A stretch of 64,000 nt of DNA, taken from contig NZ_JACC01000014.1 in the NCBI RefSeq assembly GCF_000520955.1, positions 1-64,000 on the forward strand, written 5' to 3'. Within the stretch, counting starts at the first letter, position 1. Each line of letters begins with the position of its first letter. This stretch comes from Aquimarina pacifica. GTDB taxonomy: Bacteria > Bacteroidota > Bacteroidia > Flavobacteriales > Flavobacteriaceae. The position numbers were made by a program, and so were the translations under genes. Positions 9,999 through 28,343 of this stretch are shown in pieces. A model generated the notes under the pieces. The model had not been told where the DNA came from. It made no database searches and saw only the letters and a program-made list of their open reading frames with translations.

Positions 9999-10002
9999 AG
10001 GG

Positions 10003-10503: not shown

Positions 10504-10542
10504 GGTCTTATTTTGTTTTTTACGTGTTATACATTGTGTTTT

Positions 10543-13022: not shown

Positions 13023-13030
13023 GATGACCT

Positions 13031-13486: not shown

Positions 13487-13506
13487 GGTAGTAGTTTTAA
13501 AAGTTA

Positions 13507-13734: not shown

Positions 13735-13873
13735 TTGCTTTCACTTGTTTGTTCATTAGATACATCACTCCTGTAATAGCCAAAACTGTGATCCCTACAC
13801 CGATACCAATTTTCATCATCTTCGAGGTATCCTTGGGTTGGTTTTGTTCTTCTTTCATTTTTTTGGGTATCAT
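13718..13873 (-). CDS. 51-aa single-span membrane peptide
   Basis: Reads MIPKKMKEEQNQPKDTSKMM, then one Gly-rich membrane helix (KIGIGVGITVLAITGVMYLM), then NKQVKANERIG. It fills the gap between two operon genes, with an overlap downstream and 19 bp upstream, and repeats the plan of its neighbours, so I consider it a real gene. Confidence 0.6.
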   Translation of the reverse strand: MIPKKMKEEQNQPKDTSKMMKIGIGVGITVLAITGVMYLMNKQVKANERIG

Positions 13874-13892
13874 AGAATTATTTTTTTAGGCA

Positions 13893-14615: not shown

Positions 14616-14619
14616 ACGT

Positions 14620-15231
14620 TTACTTTTGAGTTATGCTTTTCATTCCAATAAGATACCCTGAGATAAAAGCCAAAGCAATCACCACATATTCTTCCTTAAA
14701 TAAGTTGGTAAGCCTCCCTTGTACAGTAGGGGCTTGCTTTTCGGGAGTGGTTTGGACTAGTTTTCGTTGTCGTAATTCATTCCATACCATCTGCACCTCA
14801 GATGCCAATTTTTGATCATTCGGGTTAGTATTGGATTTTTTGACGACCTGATTGTAATAACTTTTCACTTCCTGATCAGATGCATCCGAAAACTGATCTA
14901 AAAAAGCATCTTCATCACCAGATCCATTGTAATTAGAATGACCACAGGTACCACAAAAATTATCTTCCTCGTTATACGTATCCTGATTACAGGAATTACA
15001 TTTCTTTGTACTTTTAACAAGCCCTAAAATTGCTTTTTTATCTGGGTGAAGCTGTAATAGTTTAGGAAGTACTTCTTTCCCTTTTTGTCGAATTAATGCC
15101 TTGGTAAGGCTAACCAATTTATGAGGATTGACAGAAGTCTCACTACCGAAGTCATGGAGCATTTCCTGAACTTTTTTAGGATTGCTGTACACCATATAAT
15201 CGATGCTATTCTGGGCAAAGTTATTTCTCAT
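14620..15231 (-). CDS. Zinc-ribbon protein with C-terminal membrane helix
   Basis: 203 residues. A double CxxC zinc ribbon is visible at about residues 78-98 (KKCNSCNQDTYNEEDNFCGT, then CG). It is preceded by a helical region and followed by an acidic linker. A C-terminal membrane helix (EYVVIALAFISGYLIGM) ends in KSITQK. A tail-anchored zinc-ribbon protein in this operon is probably structural; no homologue comes to mind. Confidence 0.55.
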   Translation of the reverse strand: MRNNFAQNSIDYMVYSNPKKVQEMLHDFGSETSVNPHKLVSLTKALIRQKGKEVLPKLLQLHPDKKAILGLVKSTKKCNSCNQDTYNEEDNFCGTCGHSNYNGSGDEDAFLDQFSDASDQEVKSYYNQVVKKSNTNPNDQKLASEVQMVWNELRQRKLVQTTPEKQAPTVQGRLTNLFKEEYVVIALAFISGYLIGMKSITQK

Positions 15232-15327
15232 AGCTATTGTCTTTTAGAAAGAAACAGCCAAAGCTCAGAATGCTTTGCTTTGACTGTTTCATCAGGGAAT
15301 TGGGGTTAAAGAGTAGGAATTATTATA

Positions 15328-16257
15328 TTATCTATATCGTGAACGTCTTCTCCTACCGGCTAAAGACATTGGGTATCTTCGTACTCGCCCTCTGGTACTT
15401 CTTCTTCTGCGAGAGGAAGGTACTCGTCGTCTTACACTGCGCACTCTCCTTGGTTTTATTCCAAATGCAGATGGACGTTTCCGTCTTCTACGTAAGTCAA
15501 TTTGAGGCAATCCGGTGGTTCTGGGAACTCTTGATAATTCCGCCACATTTCTTCCTTTTAGAAGATTCCCCATATTGGCTCTTGCCTTAATTGTGAACGT
15601 AAATACCGCAGTGACGCCAGCATTGATGGTTAGACGTATGGAATTCTGACCCGTAACATCCATCTCAAAACCTTCTGAATCTATTAATTGTTGTGTGAAG
15701 TTTTGAGGTGATGTAGCATTACGTGGCTGAAATACTCTTACTGTATTTGATCCCGCTGCGGTTCTGGTGGTTAACTTAAGAACATTATCAAATTGCAAGG
15801 GGTCACTCACCGAATATTTCATCCCCGAAATCATAAACGGGTTGGATTTCGATTCTTCCCGGACTTCCTTGTGCGAACTTTCCTCCACAGTAACCGTAAC
15901 TCCTGTAGGTTGGGCTGCTTCTTCATTACCTCCAAAAACAATGGCTTCGGCTGATTCTCCTGAAGTGTTTTTAATCACCACCGTTAGGGTACGGTCATTT
16001 GGGTCAATTTTACCGACTGAGGTCGTTCTATAGTCATCATAGGCTTCTTCTGGGTACTCTTCGATATATTCATCTTCATATTCTTCGTCATAATCATCGT
16101 AGGCATCTTCATTGCCTTCGAAACCACTATCGAAATCGTCTTCATCCTCCTGATCATCGTAACCGTCATAGATTTCCATATCACCACTATCATAGTCATC
16201 AAAATGATCTTCTGCATCATTCTGATATCGCATTAATTCATCATTATAATCACTCAT
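15328..16257 (-). CDS. Acidic/beta-rich/Arg-rich protein, candidate capsid or genome-binding protein
   Basis: 309 residues in three parts. Residues 1-80 are extremely acidic (Asp/Glu/Tyr, DDYDSGDMEIYDGYDDQ and similar). Residues 85-235 are a beta-rich domain (LTVVIKNTSGESAEAIVFGG, then NSIRLTINAGVTAVFTFTIK) without Cys. The last 60 residues are an Arg-rich tail (RRVPSSRRRRSTRGRVRR and more). Opposite-charge ends plus a beta core suit a self-assembling shell or genome-condensing protein. It is one of the two first genes of the structural run. It is the best capsid candidate here, but I cannot identify a jelly-roll by eye. Confidence 0.5.
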   Translation of the reverse strand: MSDYNDELMRYQNDAEDHFDDYDSGDMEIYDGYDDQEDEDDFDSGFEGNEDAYDDYDEEYEDEYIEEYPEEAYDDYRTTSVGKIDPNDRTLTVVIKNTSGESAEAIVFGGNEEAAQPTGVTVTVEESSHKEVREESKSNPFMISGMKYSVSDPLQFDNVLKLTTRTAAGSNTVRVFQPRNATSPQNFTQQLIDSEGFEMDVTGQNSIRLTINAGVTAVFTFTIKARANMGNLLKGRNVAELSRVPRTTGLPQIDLRRRRKRPSAFGIKPRRVRSVRRRVPSSRRRRSTRGRVRRYPMSLAGRRRRSRYR

Positions 16258-16351
16258 CTTGTTTTGTGTTTAACTGTTCAGGACAGTGTTTACCTCCAGA
16301 TAACTGGCAGCTCACAACGTAAAGTGGTTTCAACCACACCTGTTCAAAGGG

Positions 16352-16516
16352 TTATGAGGTCTTACCGGATAGTTTATGTTTTGCAGATGCTAACTCTTGT
16401 TTTTTTCTAGCTTGCATTGGTGCTATTCCATAAGTGCCTAACATTGCTCCTATGAAAATACCCATCACTCCAACAGTGATCATGCCACCAAAACTGTAAC
16501 CTTTGGATTTTACCAT
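16352..16516 (-). CDS. 54-aa single-span membrane peptide
   Basis: Reads MVKSKGYSFGGMITVGVMGI, a Gly-rich helix that continues FIGAMLGTYGIAPM, then a basic tail ending GKTS. It has the same composition as the other tiny membrane proteins and is the first gene of the structural run. A longer reading in another frame over the same bases has unlikely composition and was rejected. Confidence 0.55.
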   Translation of the reverse strand: MVKSKGYSFGGMITVGVMGIFIGAMLGTYGIAPMQARKKQELASAKHKLSGKTS

Positions 16517-16778: not shown

Positions 16779-16794
16779 TGTTTTATAAAGTTCC
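16779..16794 (-). repeat. Cassette-site copy, degenerate (left end of array)
   Basis: Matches type B at about 10 of 16 positions. The TAA stop of the HEPN-like gene (16783-16785) sits at the same place within the site as in good type-B copies. This supports it as the worn last site. Confidence 0.35.
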
Positions 16795-17364
16795 GTTTAA
16801 CTTGTGGTATTCAGATATTGCATTGCTAACCTGAGTCAGTAGTCTAAATAACTTATTGTTGATTAGAACAACGTCTGCTGTTAAATCCATTATTTTTTCA
16901 TCGTCAATTTCGAACACACTTTTTATTAAGATCTCAGTATTCTTTGTTTTATGTGCACCAAGTTCATTTCTAATATATTTAAAGGTATTAAGGTTTTCAT
17001 TTTTAAAATCGCTGAATTCTTTATTGATAGATTTTGAGACTTCAGCAAGTTCAGTCATATCATTTTTAATAAGTTCCTTTCTTAACTTATTTCCAAGCAA
17101 ATAATTTACGTCAGACAAATATTCAAATACAATAATGGCAGAAATTCGTGAATAAAATTTCTTTTCTATTTCCTCATCGGCAGATTTATAATTCAAAATC
17201 AGTAAGGATAAGTCACTTTGAACTATTTTAGAATGAATCGATAATTCTGCACTTGCTTTATATCTATCTGATTTTTTTGCCTCCAATCCTTTTAGCATAG
17301 CAAAATCAAGGATTAAAGACTCAGGGATTTGTTTGTTAATACTTTTCTTTAATTTATCTAACAT
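16783..17364 (-). CDS. HEPN-like helical protein (last cassette)
   Basis: 193 residues, all helical. The C-terminal half contains YIRNELGAHK, an R-x(5)-H arrangement in a helix as in HEPN domains, whose members are often RNases in toxin, defence and abortive-infection systems (AbiV-like proteins have a similar YIRNxxxAH). The first half (EAKKSDRYKASAELSIHSKIV) would be the other long helix pair. No partner antitoxin or nucleotidyltransferase lies next to it. Unlike other cassettes it has 86 bp between its start and the next site. Function is inferred from the motif. Confidence 0.5.
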   Translation of the reverse strand: MLDKLKKSINKQIPESLILDFAMLKGLEAKKSDRYKASAELSIHSKIVQSDLSLLILNYKSADEEIEKKFYSRISAIIVFEYLSDVNYLLGNKLRKELIKNDMTELAEVSKSINKEFSDFKNENLNTFKYIRNELGAHKTKNTEILIKSVFEIDDEKIMDLTADVVLINNKLFRLLTQVSNAISEYHKLNGTL

Positions 17365-17450
17365 TTATTTTCTATGTCTTATGGTGAACTTATAGCTAAT
17401 AATGGAATAAAGAAAAAGAATATATGTGTTTTAAATTCCATATAACTAAT

Positions 17451-17466
17451 CGTTTATTTGAACTTT
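17451..17466 (-). repeat. Cassette site, A/B hybrid
   Basis: Plus-strand CGTTTATTTGAACTTT: left half as type A, right half as type B. It touches the stop codon of the next ORF (17466-17468). Confidence 0.8.
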
Positions 17467-17933
17467 TAATTATATTCTATTTGAATTCCATATGAATTTT
17501 CCATTTCGAGCATTGATTTGCTCAAATCTGAATAAATTCTGTTACTTTCTTTAGATATTTCAAGTTCTTTTTGCTTAATTTCTTCTTCACTATAAGTTGG
17601 CGCATAAGCTTGTGCCTCCATATTACTCATACCATAATGGAATCCTTTTGGGGGCTCTGTTTTATACACTTCATTTTTAACATGCTCATAAATGAGTTTT
17701 TTTATGTTATCGACGCTTACGATGATAGAAATCTTAATTGTCTGATTTTTTAAAAAGTACCCTAATCTATTATCAAATTCCAAGTAAGGTTGAATTTTTC
17801 TTGGTGAAAGAATTTTATTTATATCTGAAGTATAAGAAACATTGGGGTTGTCCATTTTTAGTTTATTAAGGATAGTACTTTTTATATCATCAATATCTAA
17901 AGCACTTATAATTTTAACTATAACTTCTTCCAT
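17466..17933 (-). CDS. Cassette ORF, unknown soluble protein
   Basis: 155 residues from the ATG at 17933 (MEEVIVKIISALDIDDIKST), chosen because it abuts a site. An in-frame upstream start would run through the site into the neighbouring gene. Mixed alpha/beta with a charged C-terminal helix (EEEIKQKELEISKESNRIYS). No family recognised. The stop codon lies against the site at 17451. Confidence 0.6.
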   Translation of the reverse strand: MEEVIVKIISALDIDDIKSTILNKLKMDNPNVSYTSDINKILSPRKIQPYLEFDNRLGYFLKNQTIKISIIVSVDNIKKLIYEHVKNEVYKTEPPKGFHYGMSNMEAQAYAPTYSEEEIKQKELEISKESNRIYSDLSKSMLEMENSYGIQIEYN

Positions 17934-17949
17934 CGTTTTATTGAACTTT
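17934..17949 (-). repeat. Cassette site, type B (exact)
   Basis: CGTTTTATTGAACTTT. It provides the stop (TAA at 17938-17940, C-terminus KVQ) of the ORF on its right and abuts the ATG of the ORF on its left. Confidence 0.9.
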
Positions 17950-18273
17950 ATTTTTGTATTCCTGATCATAGTATTCGAAAAGTTCTTCTCTATAAATCCT
18001 TATTTTGTCTAAATCCTGGATTTTAAACGATTTTCTACTAACAATCTTAACATATTTAAGATAATACGTAATATAAGTCTCCAGAGGTCTAATAATAGTA
18101 CCCGGTATATTACTATAAAGGTTAATTATTGCTTGGTATTCTTCTTTAGCCATTTCTAACGCCAATTTATTAGTCTCCCTTTTATTGATATATCTTTGGT
18201 TTATTAAATTGGTAAGCAAAGAAATCAGGCCTCCAATCACAACCCCTATAAGCAGATAATATTCCTTAGTCAT
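17938..18273 (-). CDS. Cassette ORF, N-terminally membrane-anchored protein
   Basis: 111 residues. A membrane helix at residues 5-24 (YYLLIGVVIGGLISLLTNLI) is followed by NQRYINKRETNK and a helical cytoplasmic region. The last three residues KVQ and the stop are encoded by the recombination-type site itself. The ATG abuts the next site. The layout resembles small helical anchors found beside phage defence genes, but no family is recognised. Confidence 0.6.
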   Translation of the reverse strand: MTKEYYLLIGVVIGGLISLLTNLINQRYINKRETNKLALEMAKEEYQAIINLYSNIPGTIIRPLETYITYYLKYVKIVSRKSFKIQDLDKIRIYREELFEYYDQEYKNKVQ

Positions 18274-18289
18274 CGTTTATTTATATTTT
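18274..18289 (-). repeat. Cassette site, type A (variant)
   Basis: CGTTTATTTATATTTT, two changes from type A. It abuts the ATG on the left and touches the stop codon of the next ORF (18288-18290). Confidence 0.7.
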
Positions 18290-18530
18290 AATCTCTTTTG
18301 AAATAGTAATTTATATCACTTACTCTTTTTATTTGTTCAGTGATGTGAGCTTCAGAACAATTTCGTGAATTTAAATAGGCTCTATGCATATCTATAAATT
18401 CTTGTTTTCCTATTCCTAATTCATTACACTTTACCAAAGACTTTGCAGCTCTTTCGGTATCGTAAGAGTGTCCTGAAAAAATATGATCTGATTCACCGTA
18501 AGAGAGCCTTATTAAATTTTCTAATTTCAT
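18288..18530 (-). CDS. Cassette ORF, 80-aa soluble protein
   Basis: MKLENLIRLSYGESDHIFSG onward, helical, two Cys, no membrane segment. Stop codon adjoins a site. The ATG at 18530 is 13 bp from the next site. No family recognised. Confidence 0.5.
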   Translation of the reverse strand: MKLENLIRLSYGESDHIFSGHSYDTERAAKSLVKCNELGIGKQEFIDMHRAYLNSRNCSEAHITEQIKRVSDINYYFKRD

Positions 18531-18543
18531 GACTTAAGTTCAT

Positions 18544-18559
18544 CGTTTTATTGAACTTA
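18544..18559 (-). repeat. Cassette site, type B
   Basis: CGTTTTATTGAACTTA. A second partial copy of the right half (AAGTTC on the minus strand) lies directly beside it, between the site and the upstream stop. Confidence 0.85.
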
Positions 18560-18568
18560 TAGAACTTG

Positions 18569-19024
18569 TTACTGTACTCGAAGGGTAGCTGGAAAATCAA
18601 GTTTTACGACTATTGGCTTTCCATTAAAACTGCCTTGGAAAATTTTTGGTAGTGTCGCAAGTACTCTTAGTGCTTCTTTTTCCAAACCTTCTAAATCTGA
18701 TTCTGCATCATAGGCTAAGAGATTTCCTCTTTCATCCACGCTTATTGAATTATTAATAATATAAGTTCCTGAAAGTAACCCCAATTTAGAAATAACTTCA
18801 GTATTAAAAGTTAGATTAAAATGTCGTATTACAGCTTTTCTAGCACATTCTTTAGGAGAATCTTTTTTACGTTTACATTTAATCTCTTTTTCCAGTGAAA
18901 TTTCAACATCACCAAAATTGTAGACTAAAGAATCCTTTTCTTTATTAGATACCTTTAAAGAGTCTTGACCAAATGCTCCAAGATGTAAAATTAGTAATAT
19001 CAATAAAATTGTATATTTCTTCAT
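18569..19024 (-). CDS. Cassette ORF, exported TonB-C-like protein
   Basis: 151 residues. A cleavable signal peptide (KKYTILLILLILHLGAFGQD) predicts export. The C-terminal 60 residues (NNSISVDERGNLLAYDAESD onward, then EALRVLATLPKIFQGSFNGK and PIVVKLDFPA) match the pattern of the TonB C-terminal domain, common in Bacteroidota without an attached membrane anchor. Two Cys (KCKRKKDSPKECA) may form a disulphide. Its ATG abuts a site. Confidence 0.6.
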   Translation of the reverse strand: MKKYTILLILLILHLGAFGQDSLKVSNKEKDSLVYNFGDVEISLEKEIKCKRKKDSPKECARKAVIRHFNLTFNTEVISKLGLLSGTYIINNSISVDERGNLLAYDAESDLEGLEKEALRVLATLPKIFQGSFNGKPIVVKLDFPATLRVQ

Positions 19025-19040
19025 TGTTTTATTGAACTTT
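19025..19040 (-). repeat. Cassette site, type B (1 change)
   Basis: TGTTTTATTGAACTTT. It supplies the stop (19029-19031, C-terminus KVQ) of one ORF and abuts the ATG of the next. Confidence 0.85.
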
Positions 19041-19457
19041 GATTATTGGTCTAATGACCGCAATTAATGTAACAAAGAAATCTCTACATATTATATAAAG
19101 TATATCTGAATCATTATATAAATTCATTTCTTGTACGCTTGTTATTTTATCGTTGAGATTTTCATAGTTATTTTCTATAATTTCCTGAATAGATACAAAT
19201 TCTTCTCCTATCAGTTCTGTATTGTTTATTTTGAATGAACTTTCTCTATTGTACCAAACTTTACATACCACGCCTTCAAAAAAGTCTATTCTCCATGGCT
19301 CACCATTAATTCCACTATATTCATTTTCTTTTTTGTCAACAGAGTTGTCTTTGATTAAACCAGAAGACAAAAGCTCTTTTTTGGAATCGCCTAACTGAAC
19401 AATGGATTCTAATCTAGAAGAATCCCATTTATAAAAATACTTATCTATTTTACTCAA
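19029..19457 (-). CDS. Cassette ORF, unknown 142-aa protein
   Basis: The start is a TTG at 19457, eight bases from the site; no ATG is available nearby. The protein looks soluble (YKWDSSRLESIVQLGDSKKE, then GEPWRIDFFEGVVCKVWYNR), with a hydrophobic C-terminal strand that ends in KVQ encoded by the site. The first 60 residues resemble small beta proteins of polymorphic-immunity type, but I would not name a family. Confidence 0.5.
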   Translation of the reverse strand: MSKIDKYFYKWDSSRLESIVQLGDSKKELLSSGLIKDNSVDKKENEYSGINGEPWRIDFFEGVVCKVWYNRESSFKINNTELIGEEFVSIQEIIENNYENLNDKITSVQEMNLYNDSDILYIICRDFFVTLIAVIRPIIKVQ

Positions 19458-19464
19458 TTGTTAT

Positions 19465-19480
19465 CGTTTATTTAGACTTT
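19465..19480 (-). repeat. Cassette site, type A (exact)
   Basis: CGTTTATTTAGACTTT. It supplies the stop of the ORF on the right (TAA at 19468-19470, C-terminus KSK). Confidence 0.9.
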
Positions 19481-19755
19481 GTTATTTTAAAATTAAATCG
19501 ATTTAGGTGTTTTCTGAAATCATTTAGTTCATTGACAGCTCTAAGAACATCTACAGTTGTATAATTCCTTTTATTTTCTGTTAAAGGACCATGTATTTCA
19601 TTTCTGTATAAAAAACACTCTATAAGATGGCATTCGTCATCATTACAATTGTCTTTAATTGTTACAAAACCGTTTGTGCCTTCCGTATATGAACCCTTAT
19701 CCATTCTTAACCATTGCTGTGCTTCACTATATTCTAATCTATATTCTGTTTCCAT
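19468..19755 (-). CDS. Cassette ORF, 95-aa soluble protein
   Basis: Starts METEYRLEYSEAQQWLRMDK at the ATG abutting a site. A longer in-frame start at 19848 would cross the site and the next ORF and was rejected. The last residues TKSK and the stop are written in the site. It contains the acidic Cys pair DNCNDDECHLIEC. No family recognised. Confidence 0.55.
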   Translation of the reverse strand: METEYRLEYSEAQQWLRMDKGSYTEGTNGFVTIKDNCNDDECHLIECFLYRNEIHGPLTENKRNYTTVDVLRAVNELNDFRKHLNRFNFKITKSK

Positions 19756-19771
19756 CCTTTTATTGAACTTT
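19756..19771 (-). repeat. Cassette site, type B (1 change)
   Basis: CCTTTTATTGAACTTT. It supplies the stop (19760-19762, C-terminus KVQ) of the DUF1737-like ORF and abuts the ATG of the next. Confidence 0.85.
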
Positions 19772-19918
19772 AGTAATTGCTTGAAGAAAGATAATTCCAT
19801 TAGGTGAATTACTATGAGAAACACCACCTTGTAAGTCCCAACCATCATTAATTAAATCATTTACTTCTTCATGGAATCTTGCTATATCTTTTTCCATTAC
19901 CACACTATACTTGTTCAT
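19760..19918 (-). CDS. Cassette ORF, DUF1737-like small protein
   Basis: 52 residues (MNKYSVVMEKDIARFHEEVN, then DLINDGWDLQGGVSHSNSPN). The motif LINDGWDLQGGVS is the hallmark of the DUF1737 family, tiny proteins of unknown function often placed among toxin-immunity genes. Last residues KVQ and stop come from the site. It was missed as a separate long ORF because of its size and lies on one of the shortest cassettes. Confidence 0.7.
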   Translation of the reverse strand: MNKYSVVMEKDIARFHEEVNDLINDGWDLQGGVSHSNSPNGIIFLQAITKVQ

Positions 19919-19939
19919 AATTTTAGGTTTTAAGATTAT

Positions 19940-19955
19940 CGTTTATTTAGACTTT
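19940..19955 (-). repeat. Cassette site, type A (exact)
   Basis: CGTTTATTTAGACTTT, 21 bp upstream of the DUF1737-like ATG. Confidence 0.9.
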
Positions 19956-19973
19956 ACGTATGTTTTATTTATT

Positions 19974-20255
19974 TTATTCATCTAGATAGTTTGCTATTAA
20001 AATATATGCTTGACTACCGATAAAAGACGCCTTTTGTTGATCTTCTAATATTACTGCTTTTGGTACCGAATTAATTGGGCATTCTATACTTAGTAAATCT
20101 TTTTTGAAAGACTGTAATTTGTTTACTATATCTATATTAGATATAATTTCATTAAGCTTTAAGGCTCCTTCAATTCCAACAAGTAAATTGTTTATCATAT
20201 ACCTACTATGTATATTTCTATTTGTTAACTTGTCTTTTATTTCAAACTTTTTCAT
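19974..20255 (-). CDS. Cassette ORF, 93-aa helical protein
   Basis: MKKFEIKDKLTNRNIHSRYM onward, helical, no membrane segment; the ATG abuts a type-B site. Stop is 18 bp before the next site. No family recognised. Confidence 0.5.
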   Translation of the reverse strand: MKKFEIKDKLTNRNIHSRYMINNLLVGIEGALKLNEIISNIDIVNKLQSFKKDLLSIECPINSVPKAVILEDQQKASFIGSQAYILIANYLDE

Positions 20256-20271
20256 CGTTTTATTGAGCTTT
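20256..20271 (-). repeat. Cassette site, type B (1 change)
   Basis: CGTTTTATTGAGCTTT. The single change turns the encoded C-terminus KVQ into KAQ for the ORF on the right (stop 20260-20262). Confidence 0.85.
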
Positions 20272-20715
20272 AGTTTTATAATTTCTTCCTTTCAACATTG
20301 ACAAAATAATATTTATTATGAAAGCAATTTGTCCTGCGATTATGATTATAACACATATCCATATAGATGAATCAGGAACATAAGTGTTGACATAATAACT
20401 ATTACCTAAAAAAAGATTTGTTAAAAGCCTTCTAATACTACTTGCCAATATAATACCAACAGTAAAAATAAGATGCAATGCATTTAGTGAAACTAAAGTG
20501 TTGAAATTAAAATTATCCAAGATCTTATAAATCAGTCCTGTGAACCCAAAAAATCCACTTAAGAGTCCTAGTATTTGTTTTTGGGAAATTACAAAATAAG
20601 TGTCATGTATATTAATGTCTATTGTTTGATCTTCCTGATAAAATGATAAAAGCAATAATAAAGGAACAAAACTCCAAAATACTACATATGGCTTTTTCAA
20701 TAACTTTAATATCAT
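20260..20715 (-). CDS. Cassette ORF, four-helix membrane protein
   Basis: 151 residues with about four membrane helices. The first loop holds DINIHDTYFVI, the HDTYxV motif found in the cytochrome-oxidase subunit I core and in a group of small orphan membrane proteins of Bacteroidota. The remaining heme and copper ligands of oxidases are absent at this length, so it is not an oxidase. It ends KAQ within the site and begins at an ATG abutting a type-A site. Confidence 0.55.
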   Translation of the reverse strand: MILKLLKKPYVVFWSFVPLLLLLSFYQEDQTIDINIHDTYFVISQKQILGLLSGFFGFTGLIYKILDNFNFNTLVSLNALHLIFTVGIILASSIRRLLTNLFLGNSYYVNTYVPDSSIWICVIIIIAGQIAFIINIILSMLKGRNYKTKAQ

Positions 20716-20731
20716 CGTTTATTTAGACTTT
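20716..20731 (-). repeat. Cassette site, type A (exact), with adjacent half copy
   Basis: CGTTTATTTAGACTTT. A type-B right half (CTATTGAACTT) follows at 20740-20750, so two sites appear to be joined here, as if a cassette had been lost between them. Confidence 0.85.
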
Positions 20732-20748
20732 TATTTTTTCTATTGAAC

Positions 20749-21117
20749 TTAACGTAATAGCTTTTTATATGCTTTGTTAACAGTATCTAAATCTATTCCA
20801 AGTTCTTTTATTTGATTATCATCGTAATTTTCTGGACTAAGCCAATATTCTGATTTACCTTGACACCTTTCGGCAAGATCTATGTCGAAATGTCTTAGGG
20901 GTATTGCCGCTGCAGACCAATATTTTACTAACAGACTTTCTCTTTCATCGTTTCTATGGTTCCCTTTACCCAAGTCTCTATAATATAATTGAGTTTCATT
21001 AAGAGCCATAGATATAGCTCTTAAAGCCGTATCTTTTAATTCCCTTCGGTCTTTTGACAAAGTTGCAATCGGTCCTAATATTTTAGTTAGCCCTGATAAT
21101 AAAAAGGATATATCCAT
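20749..21117 (-). CDS. Cassette ORF, 122-aa soluble protein
   Basis: Helical N-terminus (FLLSGLTKILGPIATLSKDR, then RELKDTALRAISMALNETQL), then a region with Trp and charged residues (SEYWLSPENYDDNQIKELGI). No clear membrane segment. Its stop overlaps the half site; its start is 30 bp from the next site. No family recognised. Confidence 0.5.
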   Translation of the reverse strand: MDISFLLSGLTKILGPIATLSKDRRELKDTALRAISMALNETQLYYRDLGKGNHRNDERESLLVKYWSAAAIPLRHFDIDLAERCQGKSEYWLSPENYDDNQIKELGIDLDTVNKAYKKLLR

Positions 21118-21146
21118 TATATTTGTTTTAAGAGTTAATATAGAAT

Positions 21147-21162
21147 CATTTTATTGAACTTT
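21147..21162 (-). repeat. Cassette site, type B (1 change)
   Basis: CATTTTATTGAACTTT, eight bases beyond the stop of the lipoprotein ORF. Confidence 0.8.
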
Positions 21163-21169
21163 TTTATTT

Positions 21170-21604
21170 TTAGAATATCGTCCATGGATCAAATCCTGAG
21201 GCTTGAATCGCTGGTGCAAGTTCTTCTGCAATAAATTCTTTTTCTTCAGTATCCAATTCGTCCCATGGAAGTTCATCGACAATATTTGAAACTTGTTTGA
21301 GCTTAGTTTCTGAAGATTCCTTTGAATTATAAATCTTTTCAAGTTTTTTAAGGAAGTCATTCGTAGCTTTTCTGAGAATCAAAATTACTGATTGTTCAGA
21401 CGGATTTAGTCCACGAGCTTTCCAATTATTTGGGTTTTCGTATATGTCTGAAGTTTTTATTTTTTTTATTATACTTTCAAAATTGCTGTCAGTCATATTA
21501 GTCTTTAAAGTTTTATTGGTCAATTTATCTTTTTCTACATTTTGTCCATTACAAGAGGTCAAAAAAAATGCTATTATAATTATGTGAAAGATGGATTTTA
21601 TCAT
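21170..21604 (-). CDS. Cassette ORF, lipoprotein
   Basis: 144 residues. A lipoprotein signal peptide with lipobox is clear (IFHIIIIAFFLTSCNGQ, Cys at residue 18), so the protein is exported and lipidated. The mature part has a conserved-looking helical stretch (KLKQVSNIVDELPWDELDTE, then EKEFIAEELAPAI) that recalls DUF4844-type proteins of Bacteroidota; that family call is weak. The ATG abuts a type-B site. Confidence 0.6.
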   Translation of the reverse strand: MIKSIFHIIIIAFFLTSCNGQNVEKDKLTNKTLKTNMTDSNFESIIKKIKTSDIYENPNNWKARGLNPSEQSVILILRKATNDFLKKLEKIYNSKESSETKLKQVSNIVDELPWDELDTEEKEFIAEELAPAIQASGFDPWTIF

Positions 21605-21620
21605 CGGTTTATTGAACTTT
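21605..21620 (-). repeat. Cassette site, type B (1 change)
   Basis: CGGTTTATTGAACTTT. On its right, 21621-21718 holds no full gene, only an open 25-codon stub that ends with TAA against the site. It may be the tail of a lost ORF. Confidence 0.8.
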
Positions 21621-21718
21621 TAATTAAGTATAAATTGTTTTCTATCTTTCCATTCTTTTAACCCTTCTACAAATCGATATATTATAGAATGATAAAATTA
21701 TAACTAAATTAAATTCTA

Positions 21719-22663
21719 TCAAGATCTAACACGACGTCCTGTTCGTAATATTTCATCATAACGGCATACTACATAGTTTTCATAAACAGTAAATAAGTAT
21801 GGAGTATCTTCTTTAGGCGGATCTCCCAGAAAGAAAATATATGCTTTCTTTTTAGTCTCTTCATCCTCATCATTTTTTTGTTCAATAGTTGCAAAGACAA
21901 GCTCATTGAGAATTTTCGTCTTTTTATGATTACTTAACTGAATCAAGTCAATTGAAATAGTATAATTATTTTTAGGCTCATTTCTTTCATCATTTTTAAT
22001 CCACTTGTCAAATTCATAAAGTTGAATAAATAATCGATTCTCTCTTTCGATAACATTATCATCGCTCAAAGAAACTCTACCAAAATAAATTTTTCTCCCT
22101 TTATACTGCCCTTCACTTTTTCCCTTGATTCTTTTAAATAAAAATCGATATTCTGAATGTATATTCAAAATTTCCAGAGAATTGTCTCGGTTGTTTGGGA
22201 AATTTAGATAGAAATCAACAATTTGTCCCAAAGCAGTAACTACCCTATTTCTTTTTCTTTCTTCAGATTGAAGATTATCAATTACACCTCTAACATTCTT
22301 AATAATTCTAGGATTCAAATGATCATTCTCTTCTTTATTTGTTTTGATAGTTTTCCTCGAAGGCTTAACCAACTTACTTGGGTATGGAACAGGAAACAAC
22401 CCGTTTACACTAACATCTATAATTCTAGATTGATTCTGAAGCTCCGTATATTGACTAAAAGTGCACTCAAGTGTATGAGTGACCCCTTGTTCAGTTTTAA
22501 AATACGGTCTTGGTTTATGATGTTTTTCAAAAGAACATGGTATTAATCGAATTCTACAATTCACATCAATACACTCATAATTTGCTTTCTCAACAGAAAT
22601 TAGAAGTTTTAATTCCTCAGCTTCTATCTCTTCTCCTGTTAATTTATCTCTTGCAATATTCAT
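21719..22663 (-). CDS. Cassette ORF, 314-aa CoiA-like zinc-binding protein
   Basis: The N-terminal 75 residues contain YECIDVNCRIRLIPCSFEKH, then HKPRPYFKTEQGVTHTLEC. The C-x(4)-C, aromatic-Phe and H-x(3)-C arrangement resembles the zinc domain that opens CoiA-like competence/nuclease proteins. The rest (KSEGQYKGRKIYFGRVSLSD, then NRLFIQLYEFDKWI) is beta-rich, and I see no nuclease motif. It is the longest cassette ORF. The ATG abuts a type-A site. Confidence 0.5.
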   Translation of the reverse strand: MNIARDKLTGEEIEAEELKLLISVEKANYECIDVNCRIRLIPCSFEKHHKPRPYFKTEQGVTHTLECTFSQYTELQNQSRIIDVSVNGLFPVPYPSKLVKPSRKTIKTNKEENDHLNPRIIKNVRGVIDNLQSEERKRNRVVTALGQIVDFYLNFPNNRDNSLEILNIHSEYRFLFKRIKGKSEGQYKGRKIYFGRVSLSDDNVIERENRLFIQLYEFDKWIKNDERNEPKNNYTISIDLIQLSNHKKTKILNELVFATIEQKNDEDEETKKKAYIFFLGDPPKEDTPYLFTVYENYVVCRYDEILRTGRRVRS

Positions 22664-22679
22664 CGTTTACTTAGACTTC
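22664..22679 (-). repeat. Cassette site, type A (variant)
   Basis: CGTTTACTTAGACTTC, two changes. It provides the TAA of a 30-aa ORF at 22671-22673. Confidence 0.8.
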
Positions 22680-22763
22680 AAAATTTCTTCTTAAGGTACT
22701 TGAATTATAAATCATACCATTTATGGTAGCAATTGCGGATTGAATTTGTTTGACTGTATGCAT
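22671..22763 (-). CDS. 30-aa mini-ORF in the cassette array
   Basis: MHTVKQIQSAIATINGMIYN, then SSTLRRNFEV, with its stop inside the site. The ATG begins two bases after the stop of the 262-aa ORF, so both could be translated from one message. It may be a true small gene or a remnant. Confidence 0.35.
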   Translation of the reverse strand: MHTVKQIQSAIATINGMIYNSSTLRRNFEV

Positions 22764-22765
22764 GG

Positions 22766-23554
22766 TTATGGCTTATTTGATTTATCTATTTTTATTTGCT
22801 GGTTTTGATATTTTTTTTCAAAGTCAAATATTTTATCATTATGATATACTTCCATCTTTCTTAGATCTTGTATATCTATGGGACCTACAACAAAATTAAA
22901 AGGCAAACTATCCGTTAAAGTTATAATTACTGTATATAATTGATACTTAGGTGAACCGTAATTAGTTGTCATCATTACCTGAAGTTTGCGAGTAAAGTTT
23001 TCATGAAAAAAAACTCCTGCTGTCTCATGAAAACTTTTTCTTTTGTACCCACTGATAGTTTGGCTGCTAATTTCTAAAACAATTTTTGAATTAAAACCAT
23101 GTTCATATTTATCATCCACATATATATTAGAAAAATCTATAAACTCATTTGTTTCAATTGCTCCAAACGATTTTTTGAAAGGTTTTTGTGAGTTATCTTG
23201 TTGATGTATTCCATAATATCCGAATTTAAAAATACTATCAAATCCCTTGAAATTATTGCCGTTTTCTTGGAAGAATTTTCTGCTTTGAGCTTCGAAGTCC
23301 AGATTGTCTAATATTGGTCTTGATTCATTCAGCTTGTCTCCAATGTTCTGAATTATTTCCTTATTATTATTATCGTTATTATCTATAATTTTATCTGATA
23401 ACGATTCTTGAGATTCTATTATTTTGTTAGAGGTTTTAAAAGAAGATTCTGTTCTAGATTTTTGTATATAATAGTTGCCAATAGCCCCAAAAACTGCCAT
23501 TATTACAACGCCGACTGCAATTATTACGATTCCAAATATCATATTTTTATCCAT
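22766..23554 (-). CDS. Cassette ORF, membrane-anchored coiled-coil protein
   Basis: 262 residues. A membrane helix at residues 6-27 (IFGIVIIAVGVVIMAVFGAI) is followed by a coiled-coil, Asn-rich stretch (ESQESLSDKIIDNNDNNNKE) and a beta-rich globular part (YGIHQQDNSQKPFKKSFGAI onward). No family recognised. The ATG abuts an exact type-A site. Confidence 0.55.
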   Translation of the reverse strand: MDKNMIFGIVIIAVGVVIMAVFGAIGNYYIQKSRTESSFKTSNKIIESQESLSDKIIDNNDNNNKEIIQNIGDKLNESRPILDNLDFEAQSRKFFQENGNNFKGFDSIFKFGYYGIHQQDNSQKPFKKSFGAIETNEFIDFSNIYVDDKYEHGFNSKIVLEISSQTISGYKRKSFHETAGVFFHENFTRKLQVMMTTNYGSPKYQLYTVIITLTDSLPFNFVVGPIDIQDLRKMEVYHNDKIFDFEKKYQNQQIKIDKSNKP

Positions 23555-23570
23555 CGTTTATTTAGACTTT
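23555..23570 (-). repeat. Cassette site, type A (exact)
   Basis: CGTTTATTTAGACTTT. It abuts the ATG at 23554 and overlaps by two bases the stop of the ORF on the right. Confidence 0.9.
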
Positions 23571-23766
23571 AGTTAATAGCACCTTGATTAAGAAGTATGT
23601 ATTTTTGTTTTTTCTCACTAAAAGGAGAAATCATTTCTTTTTCTTTTACTCTTATTTCTTTAAAGTAGACGGAAACGTCACTATTACTAGTATTGTTATT
23701 TAATAGCACATAATGATCTCTTGGCATTTTTTCTAACTCCTTAATTAGTTGTTCTACTGTTGTCAT
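23569..23766 (-). CDS. Cassette ORF, 65-aa soluble protein
   Basis: MTTVEQLIKELEKMPRDHYV onward. The pattern VEQLIKELEKMPRDHYVLL is like a short protein class common in phages (LIxxLxxMPxDxxVxI), whose function is unknown. The stop overlaps a site. Confidence 0.55.
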   Translation of the reverse strand: MTTVEQLIKELEKMPRDHYVLLNNNTSNSDVSVYFKEIRVKEKEMISPFSEKKQKYILLNQGAIN

Positions 23767-23775
23767 AATATCAAT

Positions 23776-23791
23776 AGTTTATATGAATTTT
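23776..23791 (-). repeat. Cassette site, degenerate
   Basis: AGTTTATATGAATTTT keeps the spacing of the site with several changes. It lies nine bases upstream of the ATG at 23766, and a better copy follows 15 bp away. Confidence 0.4.
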
Positions 23792-23805
23792 GCTTATTAT
23801 TGAAT

Positions 23806-23821
23806 GGTTTATTTAGACTTT
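23806..23821 (-). repeat. Cassette site, type A (1 change)
   Basis: GGTTTATTTAGACTTT, about ten bases beyond the stop of the 49-aa ORF. Confidence 0.85.
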
Positions 23822-23832
23822 TACCAATTACT

Positions 23833-23982
23833 CTATTTCGTATTGATTCCAATTCTGATAGCATCTTCAATGACCATTTTTAAACAGTGTTCATCTTTGG
23901 GGTCTAACTTAACCGATAGTTTGTCTTTAATGGTTTCATTAAAAATCTTTTTAGCGGCATCTTTAATATTTGTATTAGTCAT
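23833..23982 (-). CDS. Cassette ORF, 49-aa protein
   Basis: MTNTNIKDAAKKIFNETIKD, then KLSVKLDPKDEHCLKMVIED and AIRIGINTK. It lies between two type-A sites and is the only minus-strand ORF there. An antisense ORF over the same bases has a membrane-like composition and was rejected. Confidence 0.5.
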   Translation of the reverse strand: MTNTNIKDAAKKIFNETIKDKLSVKLDPKDEHCLKMVIEDAIRIGINTK

Positions 23983-23999
23983 TCTTTTATCTTTTGAAT

Positions 24000-24015
24000 C
24001 GTTTATTTAGACTTT
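24000..24015 (-). repeat. Cassette site, type A (exact)
   Basis: CGTTTATTTAGACTTT. It encodes the C-terminus KSK and the stop (24003-24005) of the ORF on its right. Confidence 0.9.
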
Positions 24016-24146
24016 AGTTTTTTATAAATAACTTTCATTATTGATTCCCTTTTCTGAAACTCCTTTCCGCATCCTTCACATAATAGAGGTAAAGGATCTG
24101 GTACCATTCCAAATTTTTCAGCAAATGATTTACAAAATAGAGCCAT
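24003..24146 (-). CDS. Cassette ORF, 47-aa CxxC protein
   Basis: MALFCKSFAEKFGMVPDPLP, then LLCEGCGKEFQKRESIMKVI and YKKLKSK. CEGCGKEF is half of a zinc ribbon. The end KSK and stop are written in the site; the ATG abuts a degenerate site. It is the first cassette after the recombinase gene. Confidence 0.55.
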   Translation of the reverse strand: MALFCKSFAEKFGMVPDPLPLLCEGCGKEFQKRESIMKVIYKKLKSK

Positions 24147-24162
24147 CATTTTATTGCAAATG
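24147..24162 (-). repeat. Cassette site, degenerate type B
   Basis: CATTTTATTGCAAATG: the first ten bases match type B closely, the right half does not. It abuts the ATG at 24146. Confidence 0.55.
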
Positions 24163-24378
24163 ACAAAATTCATATTCACTAAAATTCAACAAAAAAACCA
24201 TACGGTTTTTACGGTTTTCCTCAGAAACAAATACTTTTCGATTAAATACAAAAAAAACTGGCGATTAACCTGATTTTCAACTAACAACACAAATGCTAAA
24301 TAGAACCAATAATTTAATCTAATGGGAAAATCAATGGAGCCTTTTAGAATATTGTATTTTTGTAGTTCCATTTTCATA

Positions 24379-24391
24379 GTCTATAATAGAC
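24379..24391. repeat. Perfect palindrome at the recombinase 3' end
   Basis: GTCTATAATAGAC, two inverted 6-mers around one base, five bases past the recombinase stop. Its half TAGAC is the right half of type-A sites, so it could be a more symmetric binding site for the same recombinase. The rest of 24163-24396 shows no supported gene. Confidence 0.4.
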
Positions 24392-24396
24392 CCCAA

Positions 24397-25060
24397 TTAT
24401 TTTATGTGTCTTTTGCAATTAGCATTATCGACATCTTGATCGTTATCCCAAAACATCGCTTTGCAAACCTTACAATTCCTCCGACCTCGATGAGCTAAAT
24501 ATTTGTATAAAGTGGCTTTGGAATTAATATCGACTAATTTCATAATTTCAGTGATAGAAAGCTGATTTTTTTTGTCTCGGTAATCGTTTTCTGCTAAAAT
24601 GGCTTGTGCTTCAGCTTTTTTACTTAGCCCTTTTCGTCTGCCAATTACAGCACCTCTTCTTCTGGCACTTTCCTGTCCAGCTAATGTTCTTTCTACAATA
24701 ATATTGCGCTCCATTTCGGCAACTGCACTAAAAATAGTAAGCACAAATTTTCCATGAGCAGAGGTTGTATCAATAAATGGCTCTTGTAAACTTCTAAATC
24801 CTACTTCCAATTGTTCAAATTCATCTACAAGCTTTAGCATATGAGAAACACTTCGAGCGATTCGATCCATCTTCCAAACAATGACTACATCTTCTTCACG
24901 TAACTTACTTAAAAGTGAATCAAGGTTTTTTCTATTTGTTTTCGCGCCGGAAGAAACATCTTTATAAATATTCTTTTCTTTTACTCCTGCTTTTAACAAA
25001 GCATCAATTTGCAAATCAAACTTTTGGGAAGGTACTAATTCGTGCATATCCAAATAACAT
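24397..25060 (-). pseudogene. Small serine recombinase (resolvase/invertase family), frameshifted at the N-terminus
   Basis: The 218-codon frame ending at 24397 contains most of a small serine recombinase: DLQIDALLKAGVKEKNIYKD, the catalytic-Arg segment VIVWKMDRIARSVSHML, FVLTIFSAVAEMERNIIVERT, GRRKG and a C-terminal HTH (SITEIMKLVDINSKATLYKYL), then CKVCKAMF. The conserved start with the catalytic Ser (MLFGYARIST) lies in another frame beginning at an ATG at 25060 and reaching a TGA at 25016-25018. Joining the two needs a +1 (or -2) shift at about 25016-25034. The rest of the gene is undamaged, so the lesion is recent, a sequencing error, or recoding at the GTT TGA T site. It resembles gamma-delta resolvase in layout. 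Cassette sites lie on both sides. Confidence 0.85.
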
Positions 25061-25103
25061 AATAGTTCATTTAAGTGTTAAATTATAAACTTATAAAATG
25101 AAC

Positions 25104-25119
25104 CGTTTTATTGAACTCG
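25104..25119 (-). repeat. Cassette site, type B, upstream of the recombinase gene
   Basis: CGTTTTATTGAACTCG; the first 14 bases are exact. It lies about 44 bp upstream of the recombinase ATG in the same direction as all other copies. A weaker look-alike (TTTAGACT) is at 25241-25248. The rest of 25120-25400 contains no supported gene. Confidence 0.8.
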
Positions 25120-25400
25120 GTAGGTTTTACTCTTCGGCTTTTAACTAATCGTTCAATTTAATGACCAGAATGGGAGTCAACATCCATAGAATATCCACAA
25201 GTTTGTGGATTATGAAAATATGATAAGTATCAATACGAGTTTAGACTCTTTCCATATCATCCTTAGTAATATCCTTAAATGTTATATTAATAATGGTTAA
25301 GTAAAGAAAAGATATTTGTGGTTTTTTTTCAAATGATTAATTGCTATCAAATTTATCAAGGCATCCAAAATGATTAAATTGCCTCATAGCGATTCTATAA

Positions 25401-25795: not shown

Positions 25796-26866
25796 ATGGC
25801 TATTACAAAACACTTACCAGATACAATTCAAACAAATATTCCTGAATTATTGGTCTTATTTAGGGATAGTCTAATTTCAAATTTGAACGGTCATACCTTT
25901 ACATTTAATGGTATTTATGAAAGTGTAAGTTCTCAGGCATATCATAATAATATGTTTTATTATGACCGGGTTATTGATAAAGACACTCGGAAACATATTA
26001 CTTTGTTTCTACACAAAAAATTCAAGAAACACCTTAAAAATAGGGAGCCTTATGAATTTACCGGAAAACTTCAATTGCATAGAGAAATCCGATCTGGTTC
26101 AATAGATATACTGTTGTATGTTTCCAATATTGATGTGAGCAAAGATGAAAAGCAGTTTATTACAGAGAGTGAGTATAATCTGGTTAAAACTAGATATGAT
26201 AAAGGCTTTTTTGATGTTGAAGGGGATATAAGTAATAAATTGTATAACAATGTAAATCCTGTAATTCTAGTGTTAACAGGAAAAACAGCTAAAATTCAAG
26301 GGGATTACCAACAAGCTTTGCATCATCCGGAGTATTACCAGATAGAAACGGTAAAAACAAATTTTTCTAATAAGAACCAATTCTTTAAAACACTTGAAAA
26401 TATTGATAGTTCTTACGATTACTTGGCTATTGTTCGTGGAGGAGGCAGTGGATTAGGTTTTTTTGACCAGGAAGATGTTTGTAAAAAAGTATTGGAAACT
26501 AACATTCCTTTCATAACCGCAATTGGTCATGAATCAGATAAAACAATGTTAGAAAAAGCTGCGGATAAAGCATACACAACACCCACGGCTTTTGGTAATG
26601 CATTGGAACAACTGGTGCAAAAAGATATGAGCTATAAAAGTCATATGATTGCTCTTGAAAATGAAATCACACAGAAAGGCAAAGAGTTTACTACCAAATT
26701 AAAAGAAGTGCATACGGACAATGAAAAACGATTGGCACAAGAACATAAAAGCTTTGAAGAAAAAATGAATGCCTTTAAACTTCGGAAAAGAAAAGAACAA
26801 AATATATTTATATCTGTTATTTTAGGGCTTCTCCTACTATTGATTATTTTTTACTTTATTAAATAA
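25796..26866 (+). CDS. Exonuclease VII large-subunit homologue with C-terminal membrane anchor
   Basis: 356 residues. Residues 35-115 look like the OB-fold of XseA (FNGIYESVSSQAYHNNMFYY, later YEFTGKLQLHREIRSGSIDI). Residues 150-280 carry the family core: NPVILVLTGKTAKIQGDYQQAL, LAIVRGGGSGLGFFDQEDVC, IPFITAIGHESDKTMLEKAA and YTTPTAFGNAL. A coiled coil follows, then a hydrophobic C-terminal anchor (ISVILGLLLLLIIFYFI). Bacterial XseA works with XseB and is soluble; here no XseB gene is near and the membrane anchor is unusual. It is the first gene of a two-gene plus-strand unit inside a minus-strand element. A role as an envelope-tethered defence nuclease is inferred. Confidence 0.8.
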   Translation: MAITKHLPDTIQTNIPELLVLFRDSLISNLNGHTFTFNGIYESVSSQAYHNNMFYYDRVIDKDTRKHITLFLHKKFKKHLKNREPYEFTGKLQLHREIRSGSIDILLYVSNIDVSKDEKQFITESEYNLVKTRYDKGFFDVEGDISNKLYNNVNPVILVLTGKTAKIQGDYQQALHHPEYYQIETVKTNFSNKNQFFKTLENIDSSYDYLAIVRGGGSGLGFFDQEDVCKKVLETNIPFITAIGHESDKTMLEKAADKAYTTPTAFGNALEQLVQKDMSYKSHMIALENEITQKGKEFTTKLKEVHTDNEKRLAQEHKSFEEKMNAFKLRKRKEQNIFISVILGLLLLLIIFYFIK

Positions 26867-28142: not shown

Positions 28143-28343
28143 CTATTTCCTCCTTATTAACATATTTAAATTCCTTATCTTTTTTTGAATAGTTTCAATG
28201 CGTCTTTGGGCTACACTAATTTTAGAATAAGGTGTTTCCCTGAGGATTCCTATGAAATTGACCCGGGTATTCCTGTTTAAATAGCGCATAGTAAAACAGT
28301 TCCCAAAAGCGTATTTATTTAGGTCCTTGCGTACGTCCATCAT
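28143..28343 (-). CDS. Small basic protein, uncertain
   Basis: 66 residues if started at 28343 inside the end of the ATPase gene. MRYLNRNTRVNFIGILRETP (from 28289) is a more natural start. Arg/Lys-rich and helical (SVAQRRIETIQKKIRNLNML). It follows the packaging-ATPase candidate and may belong to the same decaying segment as 27858-28138. Confidence 0.35.
   Translation of the reverse strand: MMDVRKDLNKYAFGNCFTMRYLNRNTRVNFIGILRETPYSKISVAQRRIETIQKKIRNLNMLIRRK

Follow-up and report, generated by a model that had tools for sequence, protein, structure and literature searches.

A candidate serine-recombinase gene-cassette array in Aquimarina pacifica and related Flavobacteriaceae

The first 64,000 nucleotides of contig NZ_JACC01000014.1 of Aquimarina pacifica (NCBI RefSeq assembly GCF_000520955.1, forward strand), hereafter the window, carry a row of short minus-strand open reading frames (ORFs) separated by copies of an 18-bp site, with the gene of a small serine recombinase at its head. 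An earlier note on this DNA had proposed that the row is an array of gene cassettes, reminiscent of an integron and built by the neighboring recombinase. We describe here the structure of the array and of its relatives elsewhere, and weigh the ways in which such arrays might be assembled.

Array sites and cassettes in the window

The array consists of 16 sites of 18 bp between positions 17449 and 24015, every one on the minus strand, as identified by variant matching and a weight matrix. In each, a 16-bp half-site, AAAGTTCAAATAAA[C/G]G or a variant of it, is followed by the core dinucleotide AT, and the sites match AAAGTTCAAATAAACGAT, AAAGTCTAAATAAACGAT or AAAGTTCAATAAAACGAT with no more than two changes. 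The five identical copies reported in the earlier note were recovered as exact copies of CGTTTATTTAGACTTT at 19465, 19940, 20716, 23555 and 24000. Its estimate of about 17 sites in the same direction stands as to direction and is amended to 16 array sites as to number, and the length that it gave, 16–18 bp, becomes a conserved block of 18 bp, best read as a half-site plus a 2-bp core.

A chance origin of the sites is ruled out by mismatch counts in the window, by Markov-2 simulations and by matrix scores. Allowing three mismatches, the 16-mer CGTTTATTTAGACTTT matches 11 times in the window against 1.93 expected, and two of these matches fall outside the array, at 5507 (+) and 7101 (-). The three 18-bp variants, again with up to three mismatches, occur at 18 places, on the minus strand only and between 17449 and 25119, with zero elsewhere on either strand; with up to two mismatches there are 16, as compared with 0 in each of 30 simulations. 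The weight matrix, made later from the window and other sites, gives the window's 16 array sites at least 13 bits. As for the two extra places found at three mismatches, 23774 is a weak match, and 25102, considered as an array site, belongs instead to the leader of the recombinase gene. A longer hidden site around the 18-mer finds little support in the letters: across 163 sites from 11 genomes, the block conserved in the direction of the genes is 18 bp, the next base carries 0.40 bits and no other position in the 40 bp on either side exceeds 0.15 bits.

Read in the direction of transcription, the array opens beside the recombinase gene with an exact AAAGTCTAAATAAACGAT copy (23998..24015), followed by a small ORF (23833..23982), a site with one mismatch (23804..23821), the ORF 23572..23766 and a second exact AAAGTCTAAATAAACGAT copy (23553..23570). 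There follow two ORFs with no above-cut-off Pfam match (22769..23554 and 21722..22663), separated by a diverged site of 16.3 bits (22662..22679), and then the site 21603..21620, whose core AT at 21603–21604 forms the start codon region of the next ORF (21173..21604). Past the site 21145..21162 lies the ORF 20752..21117, which has 255 relatives in the protein database and a relative of 75% amino acid identity just 5' of the first site of a Maribacter arenosus array. Beyond the exact AAAGTCTAAATAAACGAT copy at 20714..20731, the ORF 20263..20715, with hydrophobic stretches discernible by eye, has a relative of 58.7% amino acid identity in an Aquimarina amphilecti locus (L155). The sites 20254..20271, 19938..19955 (exact AAAGTCTAAATAAACGAT), 19754..19771 and 19463..19480 (exact AAAGTCTAAATAAACGAT) then alternate with the ORF 19977..20255, which starts at its site, a small ORF that ends in a site (19760..19918; KVQ, stop) and the ORF 19471..19755, which again starts at its site. 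The remainder comprises the ORF 19029..19457 (TTG start in the ORF list, no Pfam match), the site 19023..19040, the ORF 18572..19024 (no Pfam match), the site 18542..18559, the ORF 18291..18530, a diverged site of 16.5 bits (18272..18289), the ORF 17941..18273, a site whose AT core forms a start codon (17932..17949), the ORF 17469..17933 (scanned as 17466–17945, no Pfam match) and, last of the array, the AAAGTTCAAATAAACGAT site at 17449..17466 (29.8 bits). Sites given here without a score or an exact copy match both a variant and the matrix, as does the one-mismatch site, and all sites and cassette ORFs are on the minus strand.

The site ends in AT with G often next, and it can thus supply a start codon; indeed, the AT is often that of an ATG, and the stop codon of the upstream gene often overlaps the site. 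Among ten window ORFs scanned against Pfam (eight from cassettes, one past the last site, and the recombinase), only the recombinase reached the cut-off.

The recombinase

The recombinase gene (24397..25060, minus strand) encodes, by Pfam and alignment, a small serine recombinase of type 1, with a cysteine-rich tail, and is frameshifted near its N terminus. Its PF00239 match has an E value of 2e-35, and a helix-turn-helix match falls below the Pfam cut-off. DNA relatives over at least 600 bp come from seven Aquimarina loci, six at 84.7–91.3% identity and one at 76.7%. An alignment of ten array recombinases (A1) separates type 1, with a C-terminal cysteine-rich tail, from type 2, without it; the tail follows the pattern CKECG..FWD..C..H, for example in L065:1444-2100. 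The motif Y[AV]R[VI]ST, whose serine is presumably the catalytic one, is present in the nine other members and is cut off by the frameshift in the window copy. The best solved matches to the A1 profile are the DNA-invertases 4m6f (positions 1–154) and 3uj3, which we take to be Gin, and the gamma-delta resolvase (2–187). The proteins thus combine a resolvase catalytic domain with a C-terminal DNA-binding region, as small serine recombinases do, and the earlier assignment of the window gene to the resolvase/invertase family holds. NCBIfam provides no named family for the recombinase, its matches lying far below the curated cut-offs. Remnants of type 2 recombinases are seen near arrays without an intact recombinase in two genomes, at G120 C3:673459-673746 (L053) and G217 C19:50588-50760 (L039).

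Occurrence of the site and linkage to the recombinase

In the 5.26-Mb home genome, all seven exact matches of the degenerate site form lie inside the window array. The exact 19-bp form is found in 11 of 299 genomes of the family (reversed-pattern control, 0), and the wider 18-bp form in 35, with 120 matches as against 12 for the reversed pattern; single sites in this wide scan may be chance matches. Phylum-wide, the exact consensus occurs in one of 395 genomes, which is the home genome (control, 4). The prospect raised in the earlier note, that the site might prove a general intergenic motif, is ruled out by these counts together with the linkage to the recombinase set out below.

The same counts bear on the reading of the 18-mer as an expression signal, a translation start region or promoter that each gene needs, with the genes gathered by other means. 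The motif is A-rich, as Bacteroidota translation starts are, and in 74 of 298 units with an ORF on the array strand the start codon falls exactly at the AT. On the other hand, a further 73 units start 16–60 bases past the site and 87 more than 60 bases past it, the exact form was found before no gene of the home genome outside the array, the recombinase leader contains inverted copies, and exchanged cassettes end at the site. We therefore regard an expression signal as a quite improbable explanation of the arrays, and expression may well be a second role of the site.

The sites stand downstream of recombinase genes. Among 30 PF00239 matches listed in the 35 site-bearing family genomes, 13 have a same-strand site within 20 kb downstream, as compared with none having an opposite-strand site downstream, none a same-strand site upstream and one an opposite-strand site upstream, in a count that took in 107 of the 120 sites. 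A scan of named genomes, in which 80 loci were kept from at least 519 recombinase relatives, gave the subfamily loci used hereafter. The 80 loci come from Flagellimonas, Muricauda, Allomuricauda, Euzebyella, Pareuzebyella, Maribacter, Arenibacter, Aquimarina, Robiginitalea, Pseudozobellia, Cerina and metagenome bins, and include 12 outside loci of 46–54% identity (Bacillus and relatives, Dyadobacter, Lachnospiraceae, Nitrosomonas, an Anaerolineaceae bin and others). Two of the 68 subfamily loci are labelled as lying outside the family, Cytophaga sp. FL35 (L132) and an Oleispira bin (L108).

In the 580 kb downstream of the 68 subfamily recombinases there are 269 sites on the recombinase strand versus 2 on the other, and in the 564 kb upstream, outside the leader, 5 and 1, respectively. 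A site is present in 54 of the 62 subfamily loci having at least 2 kb of downstream sequence. When the seven loci from previously sampled genomes are subtracted, 237 versus 2 sites and 48 of 55 loci remain. The 12 outside loci have 0 sites in 108 kb downstream and one upstream, and 11 other PF00239 loci (L073–L083), eight of them chosen since no nearby site was listed, have 0 sites each. Arrays with different ORFs thus recur beside related serine recombinases in the Flavobacteriaceae, the outcome that the earlier note had proposed to look for.

Cassette exchange and breakpoints

The 338 site-to-site units considered (60–2500 bp, from 57 sources, with 7 duplicate loci and the 12 outside loci dropped) have a median length of 526 bp. 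In 298 of them the array strand carries the longest ORF, in 18 the opposite strand does, and 22 have none of 40 amino acids; the units are mostly single-gene, much as had been noted for the window, where one ORF, rarely two, was said to lie between sites. They fall into 22 families with more than one member (54 members in all) and 284 singletons.

Related units change company. In 24 cassette pairs from different sources with both neighbors known, the right-hand neighbor is kept in none. Fifteen pairs match over the whole cassette, two of them within one genome, and in all 15 the flanking 20 bp look unrelated (9–19 of 20 bases differ). Two cassettes are common to Flagellimonas amoyensis (L094) and [Muricauda] yonaguniensis (L095), two species whose genus names may be synonymous: the cassettes are 99.5% (737 bp) and 96.0% (747 bp) identical and stand in opposite order, beside recombinase regions of 88.9% identity. 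Between genera, one cassette is common to G172 and G217 at 91.9% and another to G120 and G258 at 82.9%. Fixed gene order, which the earlier note had named as counting against its reading, was accordingly not what we found.

Shared stretches often end at a site. Leaving the recombinase aside, there are 83 stretches of homology no shorter than 100 bp; a site coincides with the left end in 33 of them and with the right end in 32, where about 4.5% would be expected. Recombinase modules behave in two ways at their downstream side. Between L088 and L089, identity is 96.7% from position -150 up to the first site, beyond which no likeness remains, and in L094, L100 and L101 likeness ends at the first site as well; in L095, L097, L098 and L099 it is lost within about 135 bp after the gene, where there is no site. 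Downstream likeness between the modules of L090 (Euzebyella marina) and L103 (Flavobacterium sp. ASW18X) extends over 4280 and 2833 bp, at 87–88% identity.

At some breakpoints only one partner has a site. The breakpoint in Arenibacter L135 reads ...AAAAAGCC-AT-AATTTGCG, and that in L154 ...AAAGTTCAAATAAAGG-AT-AATTTGCG. The recombinase gene of L135 contains ...CAACAAAAAGCC-AT-AATTTGCGAACAG, and the matching L154 stretch, with 99.4% identity across 4550 bp, follows ...AAAGTTCAAATAAAGG-AT. From this comparison, an array half-site has become fused, at AT, to a location that has no site. A like breakpoint is seen between G050 and L115, and another at 21603–21604 of the window, from which likeness to Aquimarina macrocephali L115 begins (88.9% over 126 bp, to the contig end), L115 having no site there.

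Homologous recombination between short identical repeats might also shuffle the genes, and the sites are indeed direct repeats; one duplication internal to G120 is 98.7% identical. Yet imperfect repeats of 18 bp are very short substrates for RecA-dependent exchange, the L154 breakpoint joins a site to a site-less place, and the side-specific link to a recombinase would be left unexplained. We consider this explanation very improbable.

Over the 15 whole-cassette pairs, the downstream half-site differs by a mean of 1.27 bases and the upstream one by 2.33, the lower downstream divergence being as expected if the cassette is the unit AT-gene-half-site. A further step, which we advance tentatively and at less than even odds, is that gene capture of the integron kind evolved independently, from a serine recombinase that needs no more than one specific 16-bp half-site plus AT on the array side and tolerates almost any AT on the other. 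Arbitrary genes could then become cassettes, often exactly at their ATG start codon.

The recombinase leader

Sequences related to the array site also lie upstream of the recombinase gene. In the window these are a direct half-site with core GT (25102..25119, minus strand, 11.5 bits) and an inverted sub-site, site I, with core AC on the plus strand (25148..25165), which is assigned by alignment to Aquimarina algiphila only and has a matrix score of -1.6. In 48 of 63 loci, site I is an inverted half-site lying between -100 and -112, and the leader alignment, judged by eye, contains more half-site-like stretches between it and the start codon. A half-site at site I is present in 52 leaders, and their cores are AC (45), GT (6) or GC (1); in the array the core is AT in 255 of 267 sites, with the proviso that the matrix used to find these sites itself favors AT. 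Across the core, 26 of the 52 leaders have a second half-site that outscores 99% of random positions, and in 11 it outscores 99.9%; the right side of array sites passes the 99% mark in 3 of 267 cases, no more than by chance. A dyad is thus present in roughly half of the leaders, and the array sites are half-sites. We take the whole arrangement to resemble a res site.

Homology between related recombinase modules often begins at or near site I, sometimes further out, among the alignments listed, and the leader may be regulatory or may be the end of the module. We also considered site I as an entry point in the manner of attI, and found it unsupported: cassettes sit past the gene on its downstream side rather than at the leader, whose core is not that of the array.

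The inverted orientation of site I relative to the array in those 48 loci, together with the DNA-invertases among the best profile matches, might suggest a phase-variation system in which leader and array sites are inverted partners. All but 2 of the 271 downstream sites point in the same direction, though, where repeated inversion would scramble them, and the cores of the supposed partners differ. Such a system seems to us the least credible account of the arrays.

Leader sequences are also found by themselves. One genome of the same genus (G177) has two solo copies, L169:1501-1584 and L170:1501-1575, with no recombinase gene in those loci; no PF00239 match was found in that genome, and a 4-kb DNA query for the orthologous locus returned two 81-bp leader matches only, with 40 of 147 candidates scored. 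The genome also has a two-site mini-array (L168:9312 and 9743), both site variants of which occur in the window.

Proposed mechanism

Taken together, the structure of the site, the one-way arrays downstream of one recombinase subfamily, the sharing of exact units across species and genera with changed neighbors, and the AT breakpoint lead us to read the window array, with a probability of roughly 0.8, as one of a family of arrays whose gene cassettes are mobilized by a small serine recombinase of the resolvase/invertase type. The cassette, judging from the breakpoints, would be one gene with one 16-bp half-site at its 3' end, and the array a repetition of gene, half-site, AT and next gene. The recombinase would exchange sites at the 2-bp core AT, so that single cassettes could leave as circles and enter other arrays in one orientation. 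The res-like leader, with its sub-sites in both orientations, probably binds the enzyme and may serve in control of the gene and in synapsis. Our view of which enzyme acts, of a circular intermediate, of what the leader does and of the direction in which events ran is inferred from sequence comparison.

Several observations weigh against this reading. Both ends coincide with a site in only 18 of the 83 homologous stretches, and among the pairs that bear on whether a cassette takes its downstream half-site along, 6 speak for this, 2 speak against it and 7 are ties. The leader has core AC or GT where the array has AT, and no cassettes build up at the leader; under the usual rule of 2-bp matching, exchange between leader and array is unsupported. 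The 12 outside loci were separated only after the results were seen, and L150 among them, at 54% identity, is no more distant than the least similar members retained. Eight of the 62 subfamily loci have no site in 10 kb (L090, L103, L109, L111, L125, L128, L132 and L159), among which L090 is the same gene as that on G172 C3, where sites begin 13.6 kb downstream. The recombinase of G016 (L075) scores 169.9 bits against that of the window, type 2 array members scoring 157–180, and has no site in 8.5 kb downstream.

The window gene itself is a difficulty. Within the first dozen or so codons one frame reads MLFGYARISTFPKV and then stops, the remainder lying in another frame, so that the recombinase is broken or the assembly is in error. 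With its recombinase frameshifted, the array is probably no longer active by itself, and is probably frozen or served in trans. The suggestion in the earlier note that the recombinase was active until recently is not borne out for this copy.

Some arrays elsewhere also lack an adjacent intact serine recombinase: three in G120 and one each in G172 (at a contig end), G217 and G289. This, which likewise counts against the proposed mechanism, is what would be expected if the cassettes were moved in trans by some other enzyme, such as a transposase or a tyrosine recombinase, while the serine recombinase rode along as a resolvase, and the res-like look of the leader would fit. A tyrosine recombinase does lie some kilobases from two arrays (G258 C20:201544 and G289 C20:11223), but these enzymes number 5–17 per genome in the nine genomes searched. 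Against a trans-acting enzyme, too, are the strand- and side-specific link to one serine subfamily, linkage having been examined for serine recombinases alone, and the presence of the same half-site in that recombinase's own leader. The 2-bp core, moreover, fits serine recombinases, where tyrosine recombinases use overlaps of 6–8 bp. A trans-acting enzyme is thus an unlikely explanation in our view, and we retain the serine recombinase as the probable agent.

Comparison with known systems

The obvious comparison is with integrons and CALIN. Here, too, single-gene, co-oriented, exchangeable cassettes stand in tandem, split by a recombination site, with a recombinase gene at one end; many genes are of unknown kind, some are of toxin or resistance type, and there are arrays without a recombinase. 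The attC core follows the rule GTTRRRY. The site variants hold GTTCAAA, GTTCAAT or GTCTAAA and, judged by letters alone, their flanks are nearly unconserved, in line with the earlier remark that these sites are shorter than attC and lack its core. The linked enzyme is a PF00239 serine recombinase and not the tyrosine recombinase IntI, the site is 18 bp (half-site plus AT) with no conserved surroundings, and transcription of the recombinase gene runs toward the array. An attI insertion point was not found in these arrays, likeness ending at the first site in some module pairs and at a site-less place in others. Integrons are defined by the tyrosine recombinase IntI with attI and attC (PMC8618304). 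With the behavior of the array present and its enzyme and site unlike IntI and attC, we regard the system as an analogue of integrons rather than an integron.

In the Bacteroidales, rAID arrays combine a tyrosine recombinase with co-oriented short genes, conserved intergenic motifs and immunity genes, and how they acquire genes is there said to be not yet clear (PMC12247911). Both systems have a recombinase gene upstream of co-oriented short genes, a conserved intergenic motif and Bacteroidota hosts (PMC12247911). The rAID arrays have a tyrosine recombinase and orphan immunity genes, in contrast to the serine recombinase and mixed Pfam-matching genes found here.

Modules of dif type have pdif sites that alternate in orientation. 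In Acinetobacter plasmids such modules are shuffled at pdif sites and, as here, they are separate genetic units with a short recombination site at each boundary that move from one replicon to another (PMC13141974). They use Xer recombination at plasmid pdif sites, whereas our arrays have one-way sites and a dedicated serine recombinase. Finally, the Tn3/gamma-delta resolvases with res and the Gin/Hin invertases have in common with the present system PF00239, a half-site-like group before the gene and a 2-bp core, but the arrays add many single half-sites downstream of the gene, bounding cassettes, and no association with a Tn3-type transposon was seen, although no search aimed at one was made.

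In the open-access literature, we found no serine-recombinase cassette array among the titles and abstract openings listed, subscription papers and most preprints being outside that scope, and the letters of the site occur in a single paper, which is unrelated. The earlier note had likewise known of no described system of this form. Integrons are taken as the natural platform for collecting single-gene cassettes and depend on a tyrosine recombinase and folded single-stranded sites. If our reading is correct, a second platform exists, with a serine enzyme and an 18-bp site, and cassette collecting arose more than once; flavobacteria would have a route for taking up unknown accessory genes, and DNA assembly a compact site. 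The proposal also bears on how arrays such as rAID gain genes, a question raised in PMC12247911.

Cargo and genomic surroundings

Of 250 cassette ORFs found, 148 were scanned for cargo. Pfam assigned 86 families, and among the 25 listed the commonest are the ParE toxin (4) and a beta-lactamase family (3), with pairs of Abi_alpha, esterase, S41 peptidase, glyoxalase and methyltransferases; SUKH and Imm families are absent from these 25. From PADLOC there are 74 families, and the 25 listed include RmrA as well as several candidate defence proteins. The cargo looks like mixed accessory genes, as in chromosomal integrons.

The array is flanked in the window by virus-like or other mobile genes (3115–16516 and 25796–47549). 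These include genes for a glucosaminidase (5419–6045), an ExoVII-like protein (25796–26866), a Schlafen/AlbA_2 protein (26885–27811), a terminase-like ATPase (28315–29244), a Strawberry-notch helicase (35471–39790), an N6 methylase (40180–42873) and a replication-initiator-like protein (46278–47549). Other arrays are on chromosome-size contigs of 3.9–4.8 Mb (G080, G215 and G227), the exact 19-bp site form occurs in only three viral contigs, with one strong site apiece and one weak one, and phage and plasmid collections (for plasmids, the best 5000 records) gave no match of at least 60% identity to one type 1 recombinase query. Of the earlier proposal that the serine recombinase had built a cassette array in an integrated virus-like element, the cassette array is thus supported, while the virus-like surroundings seem incidental. 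A weak tyrosine-recombinase match (PF00589, below cut-off) lies at 50537–51868, 25 kb from the array.

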